A DNA stretch of 40,654 bases from Methanobacteriota archaeon (lineage in GTDB: Archaea > Halobacteriota > Methanosarcinia > Methanosarcinales > Methanosarcinaceae): positions 3,552 to 44,205 of the forward strand of contig JAENYU010000030.1 of assembly GCA_016841625.1 (NCBI GenBank), written 5' to 3'. Below the pieces are notes generated by a model that saw only the letters and a program-made list of their open reading frames with translations, searched no databases and had not been told where the DNA came from. A program made the position numbers and the translations under genes. Shown here in pieces: positions 34,729 to 39,851 of this stretch. How positions within the stretch are numbered: position 1 is the stretch's first letter; every line of letters starts with the position of its first letter.

Positions 34729-35094
34729 ATGTTAGATTATCTGCGGAAGGAAGAGCTCGCGTCATTTTTGTATGATGTACGCTACGTTATTTTATTTTAT
34801 GTCCTTGGGGACTGGCTGACTACGTTGTACGCCCTTGAATACGGCTTTGAAGGAAACATCCTGCCTGCCATTGTAATAGAAAAATACGGGATTTTCTATA
34901 TCCTGCTTCTCAAATTCCTGTTCATGGTTTTGTTGTTCAGGTCTTACCTGGTAATCAGGAATTTTCCCTGGCTCTGGAATTTTACCCGGAAAACGGTTGC
35001 AGGGATAGGTTTAGTTGTTTCGGTGGAAAACTTTATGGTTATTCTCCTGGGCACCCGATTCTTCCATAACCTATTCAGTTTTTTCCAACTTTGA
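34729..35094 (+). CDS. small membrane protein, paralogue 1 (DUF5658-like)
   Basis: The 121-residue protein has three or four helices. It contains VILFYVLGDWLTTLYALEYG, an aspartate followed by a T-T motif inside the first helix. Then come GNILPAIVIEKYGIFYILLLKFLF, a third segment, and VVSVENFMVILLG near the end. It aligns along its length with the 118-aa protein at 36407-36763 (LGDW/IGDW, LPAIVIEKYGIF/LPALMLEHYGIF, ENFMVI/NNIMVV). The D-x-x-T-T and N-x-L-P-A pattern recalls DUF5658-type proteins of unknown function. It is convergent with the ABC ATPase, with two bases between the stop codons. Confidence 0.75.
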   Translation: MLDYLRKEELASFLYDVRYVILFYVLGDWLTTLYALEYGFEGNILPAIVIEKYGIFYILLLKFLFMVLLFRSYLVIRNFPWLWNFTRKTVAGIGLVVSVENFMVILLGTRFFHNLFSFFQL

Positions 35095-35096
35095 AA

Positions 35097-36047
35097 TCAG
35101 CTCCAGGCCTGATAGTACCCCTCTTTTTCCAGGACCTTTACGGGAAGGGAGAAAAGTTCCGAGAGGTTGGAGTCGGTCAGGATTTCTTCTTTTTTGCCGT
35201 CCCTGAAGACCTGTCCGTCCCTGATAAGGATCACACGGCTGATTTCGGGAATGACGTCCTGGAGGTCATGGGTAACGAGGACAATGCTCTTTCCCGAGTG
35301 GGCAATTTTCCGGACAGTCTCGCGGAAGGTGTGGAGGGCTTTTAAATCCAGGCTGTTTGCGGGTTCGTCCAGGATAAGGACCTGCGGGTCGTGGACAAGC
35401 GCCCTTGCGATCAGCACCCTCCTGGCTTCACCCGTGGATATTTCGCTCATCAGCCTGTCTGCCAGCCGGGCAACCCCAAGGAAGTCGAGAACTTCCCTTG
35501 CCCTGGCTTCCATCTCCGGAGTGACCCTGTGGTTGTAATAGATCCCTATGCTACTGAAAAATCCCGAAAGCACGACTTCCAGCACCCTGATAGGGCGGCA
35601 GCAGGTCTGCTGGAGGTCTCCCGAGACGATTCCAAGCATCTTCCTGAGCTCAAAAACGTGCCAGGTATTCCTGCCCATAATTTTCAGGGCAGTGTCCTCT
35701 ACCCCAGCCAGGGGGTGGTATTCCTTTGTGAAAGTCTTGATAAGGGAGGATTTGCCAGAGCCGTTTGGCCCTATGATCGCCACATGCTCACCCAACTCCA
35801 CCGAGAGGGATACCGAGTCCAGGATCTTTTTCCCTCCCCGGACAACCGTGACATTCCTGAGTTCCAGAAGGAGCTCGGCGTTCAGACAAGGTTCGGCGCT
35901 CAGACGAGGTTCGGCGCTCAGACGAGGTTCGGCGCTCAGACGAGGTTCGGCATTCAGACGAGGTTCGGGGTTTTCCCCTGGGTTTCTGAAGCTTACCGCC
36001 GGGTTTTTAGAAGTTTTCCGGGGATTTTCGGATCCGTTTTCAGTCAT
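35097..36047 (-). CDS. orphan ABC ATPase, ModF/PhrA-like, with hexapeptide-repeat N-terminus
   Basis: This single ABC ATP-binding domain has Walker A GPNGSGKS (93-100 counting from the chosen ATG), signature ISTGEARR (about 203-210), Walker B VLILDEPANSLD and a switch histidine in LVTHD. The ISTGE signature and overall form resemble the ModF/PhrA group (COG1119) rather than classical importer ATPases. No permease or binding protein is adjacent. An N-terminal extension of about 55 residues, Asn/Pro-rich, ends in five RLSAEP hexapeptides. The start ATG at 36047 avoids three extra residues. Its role could be transport with a distant partner, or a soluble non-transport ABC function. Confidence 0.85.
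   Translation of the reverse strand: MTENGSENPRKTSKNPAVSFRNPGENPEPRLNAEPRLSAEPRLSAEPRLSAEPCLNAELLLELRNVTVVRGGKKILDSVSLSVELGEHVAIIGPNGSGKSSLIKTFTKEYHPLAGVEDTALKIMGRNTWHVFELRKMLGIVSGDLQQTCCRPIRVLEVVLSGFFSSIGIYYNHRVTPEMEARAREVLDFLGVARLADRLMSEISTGEARRVLIARALVHDPQVLILDEPANSLDLKALHTFRETVRKIAHSGKSIVLVTHDLQDVIPEISRVILIRDGQVFRDGKKEEILTDSNLSELFSLPVKVLEKEGYYQAWS
35877..35970. repeat. 18-bp coding tandem repeat in the ABC ATPase gene
   Basis: GTTCGGCGCTCAGACGAG is repeated at 35891-35908, 35909-35926 and 35927-35944, with a variant at 35945-35962 and partial copies on both sides. It encodes the RLSAEP hexapeptides. Changes in copy number keep the frame. Confidence 0.9.
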
Positions 36048-36406
36048 TGATACCAACCTTTTTGAAAAATTGGGACATTTTTTGTCTTCCTTTTCTCATT
36101 CCTGCTAATTTTGCGCTTTTTTTGTTTCTTCCCATTTTGCGCTTTTTCGTCTCGTTCCTATTTTGCCCTTTTCAAGTTGCTTTTTACCATTTTTTGATTG
36201 CTACTTACCCACTTTCTCCCGTTGGAACTTTTCCTCTTATACTTTTCTAAAAGGGCCTGAAATATTTCAGGAAAACTTGCAAATTCATGGAAATGTTTCA
36301 ATTAAGGAAAATTTTTATTCAATATTTTTGTTTCCGGCAAGTATATAATCTGCTAAAATAAAATCATATTAAGCTTAAAACGGAGAATTTATCCGGGGGG
36401 AGTCCG
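36048..36406. other. divergent promoter region with T-rich repeats
   Basis: No gene is seen. Three loose copies of ATTTTGCGCTTTTT occur between about 36105 and 36172 in the leader of the ABC ATPase gene (minus strand). The right side up to 36402 is the AT-rich promoter of paralogue 2 and ends in the ribosome site GGGGGGAG. Confidence 0.5.
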
Positions 36407-36763
36407 TTGAAATTTAACTATTCGAGAGTTTCATTCTATTCTTTCGTACACGAGATCAGATTTATCATTGTTTTCTACATAATAGGGGATTGGGCTTCCA
36501 CCTGGTATGCCCTGCCCTACGGTGAAGAATTCAACCCGCTTCCTGCGCTAATGCTGGAACACTACGGGATTTTTTCACTCCTGCTCCTGAAAATAGTCTT
36601 GATCCTTGGCCTTTTCCTTATCTTTCCCTTAATCAAGTTATTTCCCGCCAAATGGGTCTTCACCAAGCACGCTATCGAATTTTTAGGGATCATGGCCACC
36701 TTAAACAATATTATGGTCGTCTGGTATGGGAACAGTCTCATCCAGGCCATGGGCTGGGTTTGA
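36407..36763 (+). CDS. small membrane protein, paralogue 2 (DUF5658-like)
   Basis: The 118-residue protein begins at TTG, with GGGGGGAG four to five bases upstream. Helices: IIVFYIIGDWASTWYALPYG, LPALMLEHYGIFSLLLLKIVLI, LFLIFPLIKLF and EFLGIMATLNNIMVVWYG. It is a full-length paralogue of the protein at 34729-35094, though clearly diverged. The shared aspartate in helix one (IGDW) and the NPLPA/NILPA loop are the best candidate functional residues. Function is unknown. The pair brackets the orphan ABC ATPase, on the opposite strand. Confidence 0.72.
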   Translation: MKFNYSRVSFYSFVHEIRFIIVFYIIGDWASTWYALPYGEEFNPLPALMLEHYGIFSLLLLKIVLILGLFLIFPLIKLFPAKWVFTKHAIEFLGIMATLNNIMVVWYGNSLIQAMGWV

Positions 36764-36911: not shown

Positions 36912-38711
36912 TCAAATCCCCAGAGCTGCCCTGAACAGCACGATCAGCCCGAAGAAGAGGTTAAGCACCACAAGCCCTCCCAGCACGAGCGCACCAGTCT
37001 TTATCATGCCTGAGTTTTTCTCGAAGAAGGAGAGGCTGCCCTGCAGGGAATCCAGGGAGGCGTTCACCTTTGAGATGGCTTCTTTGGATTCCTCCAGGTT
37101 TTCTTTCAGGGTTGAAATGACCTCTTTTGACCCCTCCAGGTTTTCTTTCAGAGTTGAGATGGCTACTTTTGACCCTTCAAGGTTTGCGTTCAGGGTGTCA
37201 AGTACCGCATCGATCCTGGGCTGTTCTTCGGTGTGCAGGTGTTCAAGCACGCCGTTAACTTCCTCAAGGGTCTGCGGGATTATCCCAGGTTCATCTTCCC
37301 ACCTGTAGTTCAGGAGCTCGAAACTGCGGTCAATTTTGGAGAGTTGACGTTCGTAAAAAGTGGTCTGGGCTTTAAGGAACTCGTAATTTTTCTGGAACCC
37401 GTCAAATTTCGTGTTCATACTTGCCGAGATCCTTGCAGCCTGGGGCTGCCTGATCCCCACCGAAGCATTCACGTTCCCGGCAAGCGAGAATTTCAGGCTC
37501 TCCAGGATTTCCGGTTTAATTCCTGCAAAAGTGGGTTCTACAACTGCATTTCTCAGTTCCGGCTCTCCTTCTAAAGCCGGTATTTCCACATCTTTTGCAA
37601 TTACTTTTCCAGCGATTCCTTTTCCTGCCTCGCTGCTCGCAAGTTTCATTGACGCGGTTTCTTTCAGGAGCTTTGCAGCATTTACGATTTCATCCGGGCT
37701 TTTTCCTGAAAGTTCCGAAACCTTTGAACTGCCTATGATGTCCGGAAACTTTTCAGTGTCTTTAACGATTCCCGGGATTTCCACGGTTCCCGGTTTTTCC
37801 GTGATTTCAGGAATTGTCTCGATTTCAGGAATTGTCTCGATTTCAGGGATTCCCTCGATTTCAGGGATTCCCTCAATTCCCGGAATTTGCAGACCTGCCC
37901 CCATCAGTTTTATCCCGCTGCTACTGATATCAAATTTATTTTCAGGGATTTTTTCCATTGCCCCGGCGAACTGGAGGGCAAGTTTTTCTTTCCTGCCCAG
38001 CAGGCCTTCGTAGTACTTTTTGTCAAGTTCCAGCTTCCCGAGTTTGTCTTTTATGCTGGGGGAGAGCTCGATATCCAGGAGTGGCACTTTCTTTTTCGTG
38101 ACAAAGAGCTTTTTTACCTCCTGCAGGACTTCTTCGCTGACCTCCAGGTTGTCGTCCATGGAGTCCAGGATGTCCTCGATCTTGGGCTGCTCCAGGGTAT
38201 TGAAGCGTTCGAGCACCTCTTTTGCGCAGTAGATGCCTTCGGTCAGCACCCCCGGTTCCTGGTAGAGAATCCCCGTAATTTCGCTGTTGACTGCCGTAAG
38301 CCTTGCCAGCAGCTGGAAGGTCTCAAACGTGTTCGACCAATCCGTTAGCATGTCCCAGAAGTCGAAGTCGACCTTTTCCGGGTTGTCCACCCCAAACTCT
38401 TTGAGTTTGGCTTCGATCTTTTCCTTTTCTTCCCTGAGGTCGGCCAGCCTCTCCTTTTCCTCATCCCAGAGCTCGTCCTCGTCCCGCGGGCTCATCCTCT
38501 TGATCGTTATCAGTTCCTCGGTCTCTTCCAGAAGCAAGGAAAGCTGCTCGCCAAGCGCCTCGATAGTCGAGCCGATAACCGCAATAGCCGTTCCCGCCTG
38601 TTCCGCGGCTTTTCCCATATCTTCTGCAGCATTCCCTCCCTGGTAGGCTGCCTTTCCTATATTATAAAGGCCGCAGGTCGCGACCCCTAATGCAACGTCT
38701 TTCCATCCCAT
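36912..38711 (-). CDS. 599-aa coiled-coil protein with internal duplication and C-terminal membrane anchor
   Basis: I do not recognise a named family. The layout is visible. Residues 1-60 form a Gly/Ala-rich amphipathic start (GWKDVALGVATCGLYNIGKAA). Helical, charged coiled-coil sequence runs from about 60 to 250. An IPEIEx hexapeptide repeat spans about 277-303. A linker follows, then a second helical block from about 440 to 560 with LKENLEGSKE-type heptads. One membrane helix lies at about 572-594 (KTGALVLGGLVVLNLFFGLIVLF). Residues 129-201 and 451-523 align without gaps at an offset of 322 (EPG 152/474, EQP 174/496), showing a duplicated module. No signal peptide is seen, so most of the protein is probably cytoplasmic and tail-anchored. 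Confidence 0.75.
   Translation of the reverse strand: MGWKDVALGVATCGLYNIGKAAYQGGNAAEDMGKAAEQAGTAIAVIGSTIEALGEQLSLLLEETEELITIKRMSPRDEDELWDEEKERLADLREEKEKIEAKLKEFGVDNPEKVDFDFWDMLTDWSNTFETFQLLARLTAVNSEITGILYQEPGVLTEGIYCAKEVLERFNTLEQPKIEDILDSMDDNLEVSEEVLQEVKKLFVTKKKVPLLDIELSPSIKDKLGKLELDKKYYEGLLGRKEKLALQFAGAMEKIPENKFDISSSGIKLMGAGLQIPGIEGIPEIEGIPEIETIPEIETIPEITEKPGTVEIPGIVKDTEKFPDIIGSSKVSELSGKSPDEIVNAAKLLKETASMKLASSEAGKGIAGKVIAKDVEIPALEGEPELRNAVVEPTFAGIKPEILESLKFSLAGNVNASVGIRQPQAARISASMNTKFDGFQKNYEFLKAQTTFYERQLSKIDRSFELLNYRWEDEPGIIPQTLEEVNGVLEHLHTEEQPRIDAVLDTLNANLEGSKVAISTLKENLEGSKEVISTLKENLEESKEAISKVNASLDSLQGSLSFFEKNSGMIKTGALVLGGLVVLNLFFGLIVLFRAALGI
37800..37880. repeat. 18-bp coding repeat (IPEIEx)
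   Basis: Near-copies of GATTTCAGGAATTGTCTC and GATTTCAGGGATTCCCTC follow each other with an 18-bp period inside the 599-aa coiled-coil gene. They encode the proline-containing hexapeptides that separate the two helical blocks. Confidence 0.8.
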
Positions 38712-39140
38712 TTTTACCTTCTCCTCTCTATTTTTCCTCTTAACTTTTCCTCGTCGTTTATTCCCTGGCTTTCCTTTTTGGCGAGTTTAACTCTGTCATG
38801 CTCACAAATTCAATTTTTTTAATTATGAACTATTGTACTCTGACTCAATTATAAATTATTTTGTATTTTTTTAAAAGAGACGAGCAGGGAAGGCAGAAAG
38901 AGAAGATTAGAAAAGATTAGAGAAAATTGATGCCTGTGGCTTCTGTCAGTGGGTTGTGTCTGTGGATTCTGCAGTGGATTCTGTTGTGGGTTCTGTCAGT
39001 GGGTTCTGTCTGTGGATTCTGCTGTGGGTTGTGAAGGGGGCGTGCAGGTATTTAGGTCCGATGATTGTGATTCTGCAAGTGGTGCCGTTAAATAAAACGT
39101 TGAATAAAGTATATTTAACATCTTAAATAATTACTAAAAC
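38712..39140. other. intergenic region with a 50-bp period repeat
   Basis: No gene is seen. A 32-bp phrase beginning TTCTGTCAGTGGGTT and ending TGTGGATTCTGC occurs at 38941-38972 and again at 38991-39022 with one mismatch, a 50-bp period. The DNA between and beyond is made of shorter copies of the same GTGGATTCTG/GTGGGTTCTG words. A TATA-like AAGTATATTTAAC lies at about 39107-39119. Confidence 0.75.
39107..39119 (+). promoter_or_regulatory. TATA box for the DNA alkylation repair gene
   Basis: AAGTATATTTAAC lies about 25-32 bases before the GTG start, which has no ribosome site. This spacing predicts a leaderless mRNA. Confidence 0.4.
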
Positions 39141-39851
39141 GTGACCGGCAATATTATCAGCAGTATCAAAGGGGATTTAGTGCAAAACGTGGACGAAAAA
39201 ACGAAAAACAATTATCAGCGTTTTTTTAAGGAAGAGGTGAAATGCTACGGAGTGAAGAGTTCCATTGTGGGAAAGCTTGCAAAGAACTATTTTGCAGAAA
39301 TCGAACAGAAAGAAAAAAGAGAGATCTTTTCTCTGTGTGAAGAGCTTCTGAAGTCGGACTACTGCGAAGAGGCTTTTATCGCATTTCAGTGGGCGTACCG
39401 GGTAAGAAAGGATTATGATGAGGGGGATTTGCAGGTTTTTGAAAGCTGGATTGAAAACTACGTCAACAACTGGGCGAAATGCGATACCCTCTGCAACCAT
39501 GCCGTAGGCTCTCTTATCGATCAGTTCCCCGGCTGTATCGAGCGGCTCAAAACCTGGACAAAGTCGGAGAACAGGTGGCTCAGGCGCGCTGCTGCCGTGA
39601 CCCTGGTTCTGCCTGCCCGGAGAGGCAGGTTCCTGGAAGACATTTTTGAGATCTCCGACAGCCTGCTACAGGACGAGGACGACCTGGTCCGGAAGGGCTA
39701 CGGCTGGATGCTCAAAGAGGCGAGCAAAGCCCACAGGCAGGAAGTCTTTGAATACGTGATGAAAAACAAGAAAGAGATGCCCCGGACATCACTCAGGTAC
39801 GCGATTGAGAAACTTCCCGGGGACATGAGGGCTAAGGCGATGGAAAAATAA
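39141..39851 (+). CDS. DNA alkylation repair protein (AlkD-like, HEAT-repeat)
   Basis: The 236-residue protein matches the AlkD/AlkC-type DNA glycosylase family, which removes bulky or positively charged alkylated bases from DNA. Seen are the N-terminal FKEEVKCYGVKSSIVGKLAK and the conserved YVNNWAKCDTLCNHAVGSL, which matches the family NWDxCD motif with the catalytic-site Asp. ENRWLRRAAAVTLVLPARRG and DDLVRKGYGWMLKEASK follow, all in alpha-helical HEAT-like repeats. The start is a GTG without ribosome site but with a TATA element at leaderless distance. It is monocistronic. It is not known from sequence alone which lesion it prefers. Confidence 0.9.
   Translation: MTGNIISSIKGDLVQNVDEKTKNNYQRFFKEEVKCYGVKSSIVGKLAKNYFAEIEQKEKREIFSLCEELLKSDYCEEAFIAFQWAYRVRKDYDEGDLQVFESWIENYVNNWAKCDTLCNHAVGSLIDQFPGCIERLKTWTKSENRWLRRAAAVTLVLPARRGRFLEDIFEISDSLLQDEDDLVRKGYGWMLKEASKAHRQEVFEYVMKNKKEMPRTSLRYAIEKLPGDMRAKAMEK

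Follow-up and report, generated by a model that had tools for sequence, protein, structure and literature searches.

The window (the whole stretch of DNA analysed, 40,654 nucleotides long) comes from a 3.76 Mb genome of a member of the Methanosarcinaceae and carried a gene for a predicted tail-anchored protein with two copies of one module (Table 1). The gene stood alone, with a divergent DNA-alkylation-repair gene upstream and a convergent gene for a small membrane protein downstream. Two small membrane-protein genes, at 34729-35094 and 36407-36763 on the forward strand, lay either side of an ABC ATPase gene (35097-36056); the product of the former matched DUF5658 below threshold, that of the latter had no Pfam match, and BLAST placed both in one cluster. 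An 18-bp tandem repeat of 5.2 copies (35875-35968) lay within the ABC ATPase ORF, at the N-terminal end, and encoded hexapeptides of the EPRLSA type; its period equalled that of the IPEIEx hinge repeat of the family gene. A 13-bp repeat of 7.7 copies (38934-39030) lay between the family gene and the DNA-alkylation-repair gene.

Table 1. Features of the family gene, with positions in the window and residues of the encoded protein
Feature	Residues	Positions	Strand	Basis
Whole gene, tail-anchored two-module protein of 599 aa	1-599	36912..38711	-	ORF, ATG start; homologues in 45/185 genomes of the order; dN/dS
Conserved Gly/Ala-rich N-terminal segment	1-73	38493..38711	-	Alignment of 12; predicted as one long helix (3-70), pLDDT 31-54
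First module copy (EPG...EQP...LD..DDNLE)	152-201	38109..38258	-	Self-alignment and module profiles; pLDDT 38-49
Strand and long helix of predicted helical head	204-210, 218-254	37950..38102	-	AlphaFold2 models; pLDDT 70-84 for 211-250
Linker, predicted disordered, not conserved	257-415	37467..37943	-	pLDDT 24-38 from residue 261; dN/dS 0.27-0.36; unalignable across genera
18-bp tandem repeat encoding IPEIEx hinge, 6.9 copies		37765..37888	-	Tandem Repeats Finder
Long helix of C-terminal half, modelled against helix 218-254	424-468	37308..37442	-	AlphaFold2, pLDDT 69-80 only for 441-470; present in second model
Second module copy	474-523	37143..37292	-	Self-alignment and module profiles
42-bp tandem repeat (14 residues, two heptads), 3 copies, lengthening stalk; overlaps end of second module		37070..37196	-	Tandem Repeats Finder; stalk lengths
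C-terminal membrane helix, followed by six residues	575-593	36933..36989	-	Kyte-Doolittle (KD) mean 2.72; conserved segment in alignment

Distribution of the family

The closest relatives in named records were a Euryarchaeota MAG and a Methanosarcinaceae MAG, followed at greater distance by Methanosarcina sp. KYL-1, Methanolobus, Methanococcoides and Methanohalophilus. In a profile search at order level, 45 of 185 genomes had a homologue. At family level, a protein search of 100 genomes matched 45, of which 42 were counted as members; the three left out (G010, G042 and G084) had weak matches only, which in two cases fell on the hinge repeat. Distribution in the phylum sample was patchy (38 of 392 genomes, with fragments only in G062 and G263), and members from other families (G266, G433, G121, G262 and G362) shared the same plan. 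Since the gene occurred in only 1 of 22 Methanosarcina genomes of the family-level search (genus g8, assigned through a contig shared with a named record), it is dispensable.

One complete locus per genome was found in the searches made, and one genome (G061) had a possible second tail remnant in addition to its complete gene. Some copies were damaged: the frame at locus L070 lacked the tail, and the genes at L106 and L108 were reduced to pieces. At L106 (9194-9536), a 63-aa ORF with the N-terminal motif overlapped a 53-aa ORF with the membrane tail by 11 bases, the middle being absent.

As the original prediction had it, the family was unrecognised: no Pfam family reached its cut-off in 12 members, nor did any NCBIfam family in nine. 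PADLOC and PHROGs, neither of which supplies cut-offs, were searched with five members each, and matches across all four libraries were sub-threshold or at the level of coiled coils. We found no paper describing the family among titles and abstract openings, in a literature search of partial coverage. It is a coherent family with strict motifs that is absent by name from the curated libraries used, and its genera Methanolobus, Methanococcoides and Methanohalophilus include sequenced strains.

Module duplication, linker, stalk and membrane tail

The protein had been proposed to contain a duplicated module, with residues 129-201 aligning to 451-523 at a constant offset of 322 and without gaps. 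Among offsets of at least 30, the best ungapped self-diagonal was indeed 322, pairing residues 152-243 with 474-565 (BLOSUM62 score 101, runner-up 48). The gapped alignment of residues 61-270 with 391-565 scored 103, a value reached by none of 2000 shuffles of 391-565 (maximum 71, Gumbel p 2e-7). The duplication was therefore statistically supported, with a narrower extent than proposed: the ungapped alignment of 129-201 with 451-523 scored 73 (19/73 identities), of which the part from 152 to 201 alone contributed 93 and that from 129 to 151 contributed -20. In the window protein the module begins near residue 152. When 11 members were compared singly (300 shuffles each), the match between N- and C-terminal halves ranged from p 4e-13 in a distant relative (L104) to p 6e-3 in L064, for which one shuffle scored 60 against an observed 59. 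Profiles of 14 first and 13 second copies aligned in hhalign with a probability of 98.8 (E 8.8e-17, 52 columns). PG and QP were invariant in both copies, within a broader signature EPG(V/I)...EQP(R/K)(I)(E/D)...LD...DNL. The offset of 322 was not constant in the family, with module spacing of 221-373 in relatives, and dN/dS among three sequences (the window protein and two congeners) was 0.02-0.08 for the first module and 0.11-0.26 for the second.

A search with the single module, as originally suggested, matched 39 of 392 phylum genomes (profile A4), 36 of them with at least two matches and three with one borderline match, and found no single-module relative. Two of the borderline matches were set aside by eye as helicase-like (G404) and as resembling a large membrane protein (G186); the third (G348) covered 18 residues at E 0.00996. 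With no protein of a single module detected, the duplication appears to go back to the family's ancestor.

The IPEIEx repeat hinge that had been noted between the modules did not hold up as conserved: this 18-bp minisatellite is specific to the genus and lies in a fast-evolving linker that is predicted to be disordered, and within the family it was limited to the window's genus among 22 aligned genes. IPEIEx-like stretches also turned up in unrelated short frames. In three pairwise comparisons of the window protein and two congeners, dN/dS was 0.27-0.36 for the linker, 0.08-0.20 for residues 1-260 and 0.10-0.16 for residues 416-599, which indicates stronger constraint on the N- and C-terminal ends than on the linker.

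The heptads predicted ahead of the membrane helix were upheld by the two-heptad repeat and by a stalk whose length varied in repeat units. Stalk lengths, counted between the second EPG and the span, fell into groups of 72-77, 87, 99-102, 106-110, 130 and 139-143 residues (several rows of the underlying table are one gene fetched twice), and complete members had one to three EQP copies in the C-terminal half. Extra length came from 14-residue repeats in the window protein and elsewhere from EQP units 22, 29 or 33 residues apart, giving steps between species of about 14, 22, 29 and 33 residues. These steps fit combinations of 7 and 11, the repeat lengths usual in coiled coils, as do many other numbers.

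The C-terminal membrane helix was borne out in 12 of 12 members tested, at the extreme C-terminus (KD 2.47-3.04, with two to seven residues after the span). Hydropathy indicated no other span in the same members, the best N-terminal window reaching at most 1.43 and the best internal one at most 1.17. On hydropathy only, the head would be placed in the cytoplasm. The N-terminal segment, too weakly hydrophobic to span a membrane, carried six residues invariant in 12 aligned members (T12, G14, Y16, G19, K20 and Y23; T.G.Y..GK..Y). Its profile (A7) matched 43 of 392 genomes, of which 36 were the same genes and six were borderline (E 0.003-0.007). In G263, this profile identified a gene in which the N-terminal motif and the tail were kept and nothing else.

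Predicted structure and comparison with known systems

Structure prediction was another check put forward at the outset. AlphaFold2 was run twice, once on the window protein and once on a shorter relative from Methanohalophilus; the two models agreed on the order of elements, but overall confidence was low (mean pLDDT 48, pTM 0.26-0.28). The best-modelled residues, in window numbering, were 81-110, 131-150, 211-250 and 441-470 (pLDDT about 70-85); the first module had pLDDT 38-49 and the second 44-65, and values were lower at the N-terminus, in the linker and over most of the tail. Short strands were modelled after the first module (204-210) and before the second (469-475). The models suggest that the two halves may meet, folding back into one composite helical head, which at a mean pLDDT of 48 stays a suggestion. 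With a model of such low confidence, Foldseek gave no significant match among solved structures (best E 2.3), and a comparison with the FES F-BAR fold gave Z 8.2 with an rmsd of 49.4 over 155 aligned residues. Sequence and fold searches of solved structures together yielded nothing above chance, an absence of matches that is not evidence for a new fold.

Tail-anchored membrane proteins include GET/TRC clients and proteins of SNARE-type layout. The family shares with tail-anchored proteins in general a single C-terminal span, no N-terminal span and a coiled-coil-like stalk before the span; none of the tail-anchored families already known was matched by the window protein in Pfam or NCBIfam. Matches to SMC-type (TIGR02168) and ASRP (NF045487) proteins covered residues 431-561 only, at 17.6-17.7 bits against cut-offs of 567 and 300, and the family protein differs from both in having a membrane span. 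Stalk repeats matched DUF948, DUF1664, apolipoprotein-type, SesA and C1orf109-like Pfam families weakly (best E 0.00034-0.012), all below the gathering score and with no common EPG/EQP signature shown: DUF948 reached 13.9-16.3 bits against 37.2 in L056, L064 and L067, and SesA 20.7 against 26.3 in the stalk repeats of L053 (548-604), not in an N-terminal domain. The best NCBIfam match of the set was to the MG_279/MG_280 two-TM family (TIGR04527) in L104 (residues 368-470, E 1.7e-5); its score of 24.6 bits fell short of the 125 required, and the match was confined to a helical stretch. Lamassu LmuB of PADLOC had no full-length match, aligning only with residues 442-570 of the window protein (E 1.1e-5) and with L104 (E 0.00044), and was not matched in L103, L105 or L107. 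In layout only, paramyxovirus fusion glycoprotein F0 has a Gly/Ala-rich N-terminal segment, heptad repeats and a C-terminal span in common with the family. Profile resemblance to F0 was E 0.19-0.8 over whole sequences, with a chance-level i-E of 3.5 for the best single stretch, and a class I viral fusion protein was dropped as a compositional likeness.

Gene neighbourhood, probable transfer and possible function

In Methanolobus (g5, named from its database records), clpB was the 3' neighbour of the family gene in 9/9 loci. Of seven genomes of this genus without the gene, six had the two flanking genes separated by 80-370 bases, with nothing of the family gene between them, and one (G075) had about 2.5 kb of other sequence at the site; in G095 the flanking regulator gave a weak internal match (E 0.001), taken as chance. 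The gene tree (FastTree, supports 0.99-1.0 for the groups named here) mixed genera. Methanococcoides genes fell into two distinct clusters, the first shared with Methanohalophilus and the second including a MAG labelled Methanohalophilus; G266, of another family, sat beside genus g4 of this family; and G433, of this order, joined G262 and G362, which do not belong to the order, with the long-branched G121 standing separately. Sideways transfer would be the simplest account of both tree and patchiness, with old paralogues and losses as an alternative that the possible second tail remnant in G061 keeps in play. The best reading is that the gene is an accessory, sideways-spread trait outside the core functions of the cell. 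In the loci compared, no neighbouring gene recurred across genera as a partner, and phage (50,697 records), plasmid (72,556 records) and viral-contig collections gave no match.

To judge from its sequence, the protein resembles a structural tether more than it does an enzyme. We postulate, at somewhat under even odds (roughly 0.45), that it is a methanogen tail-anchored membrane scaffold or tether, accessory and sideways-spread. The single hydrophobic C-terminal helix would anchor it in the membrane; the halves would fold back on each other so that helices 218-254 and 424-468 and the short strands make one head, from which the variable linker would loop out; the repeat-built stalk would keep this head a fixed distance away from the membrane; and the head and N-terminal segment may attach to a partner, to a further copy of the protein or to the surface of a membrane. 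The anatomy was supported; fold and function we infer. A tether or scaffold, as first suggested, is favoured by that anatomy (the membrane anchor, variable-length stalk and conserved motifs), by the lack of any enzyme family at cut-off and by the lack of a cross-genus partner, though the last counts against the role as well; the idea is reasonable. Also against it are the low confidence of both models, the lack of a significant match among solved structures and the dispensability of the gene; coiled-coil proteins may be sensors or effectors as well, and the second module was less constrained than the first. To our knowledge few archaeal cytoplasmic membrane scaffolds have been described, so a confirmed one would be useful. 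A more elaborate form, which we consider unlikely, is a membrane-bridging machine with the C-terminal span in one membrane patch and the strictly conserved N-terminal Gly/Ala segment inserted in another, the paired modules acting as a clamp and the stalk evolving by whole repeat units. If true, methanogens such as Methanolobus, Methanococcoides and Methanohalophilus would share, through sideways spread, an accessory device for tethering or remodelling.

Other roles were weighed against a tether or scaffold. The strict conservation of PG and QP in both copies suggests a binding surface and not a mere rod, as might be expected if the protein were a membrane receptor or took part in signalling, its two modules binding either a ligand or one another; such a role is improbable, with no output domain matched and no recurrent signalling gene adjoining the family gene. 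A membrane-active effector, for instance a stand-alone antiviral or growth-arrest protein whose N-terminal Gly/Ala segment would insert on triggering while the rest senses, would suit an accessory, patchy gene with mixed genera in its tree, clean gain or loss and fragmentary or truncated copies. CRISPR arrays were nearby in 2 of 18 loci scanned, one with a cas1-like gene, and type I restriction genes lay near another locus (both gene types by eye). We nevertheless hold this role to be doubtful: the PADLOC matches of the window protein (LmuB) were limited to coiled-coil stretches, the remaining neighbourhoods were housekeeping-like by eye, the phage, plasmid and viral collections gave no match, and the N-terminal part is under purifying selection. 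A membrane-linked stress protein, working as a partner or adaptor of ClpB or heat-shock proteins and holding these or their clients at the membrane, would draw on the constant clpB neighbour in Methanolobus and on Hsp20- and GroEL/GroES-like genes (by eye) close by in several of those loci. It seems very unlikely, however, as clpB is convergent with the family gene and not co-transcribed, the link is absent from other genera, and clpB is still in place in 7/7 Methanolobus genomes without the family gene. Presence and absence at one locus among close relatives would make function testable by comparison of natural strains or by gene removal.

Further neighbours recurred or stood out at single loci. 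A DNA-alkylation-repair-like gene adjoined the family gene in the window's genus (39141-39851) and, by eye, in the distant G262 (L105:10231-11223), in differing orientations. By eye, the family gene lay upstream of an aconitase/isopropylmalate-type gene in G266 and G433. In G121, a CRISPR array with 28 repeats shown (L104:5532-7562) lay some 1 kb upstream of the family gene.
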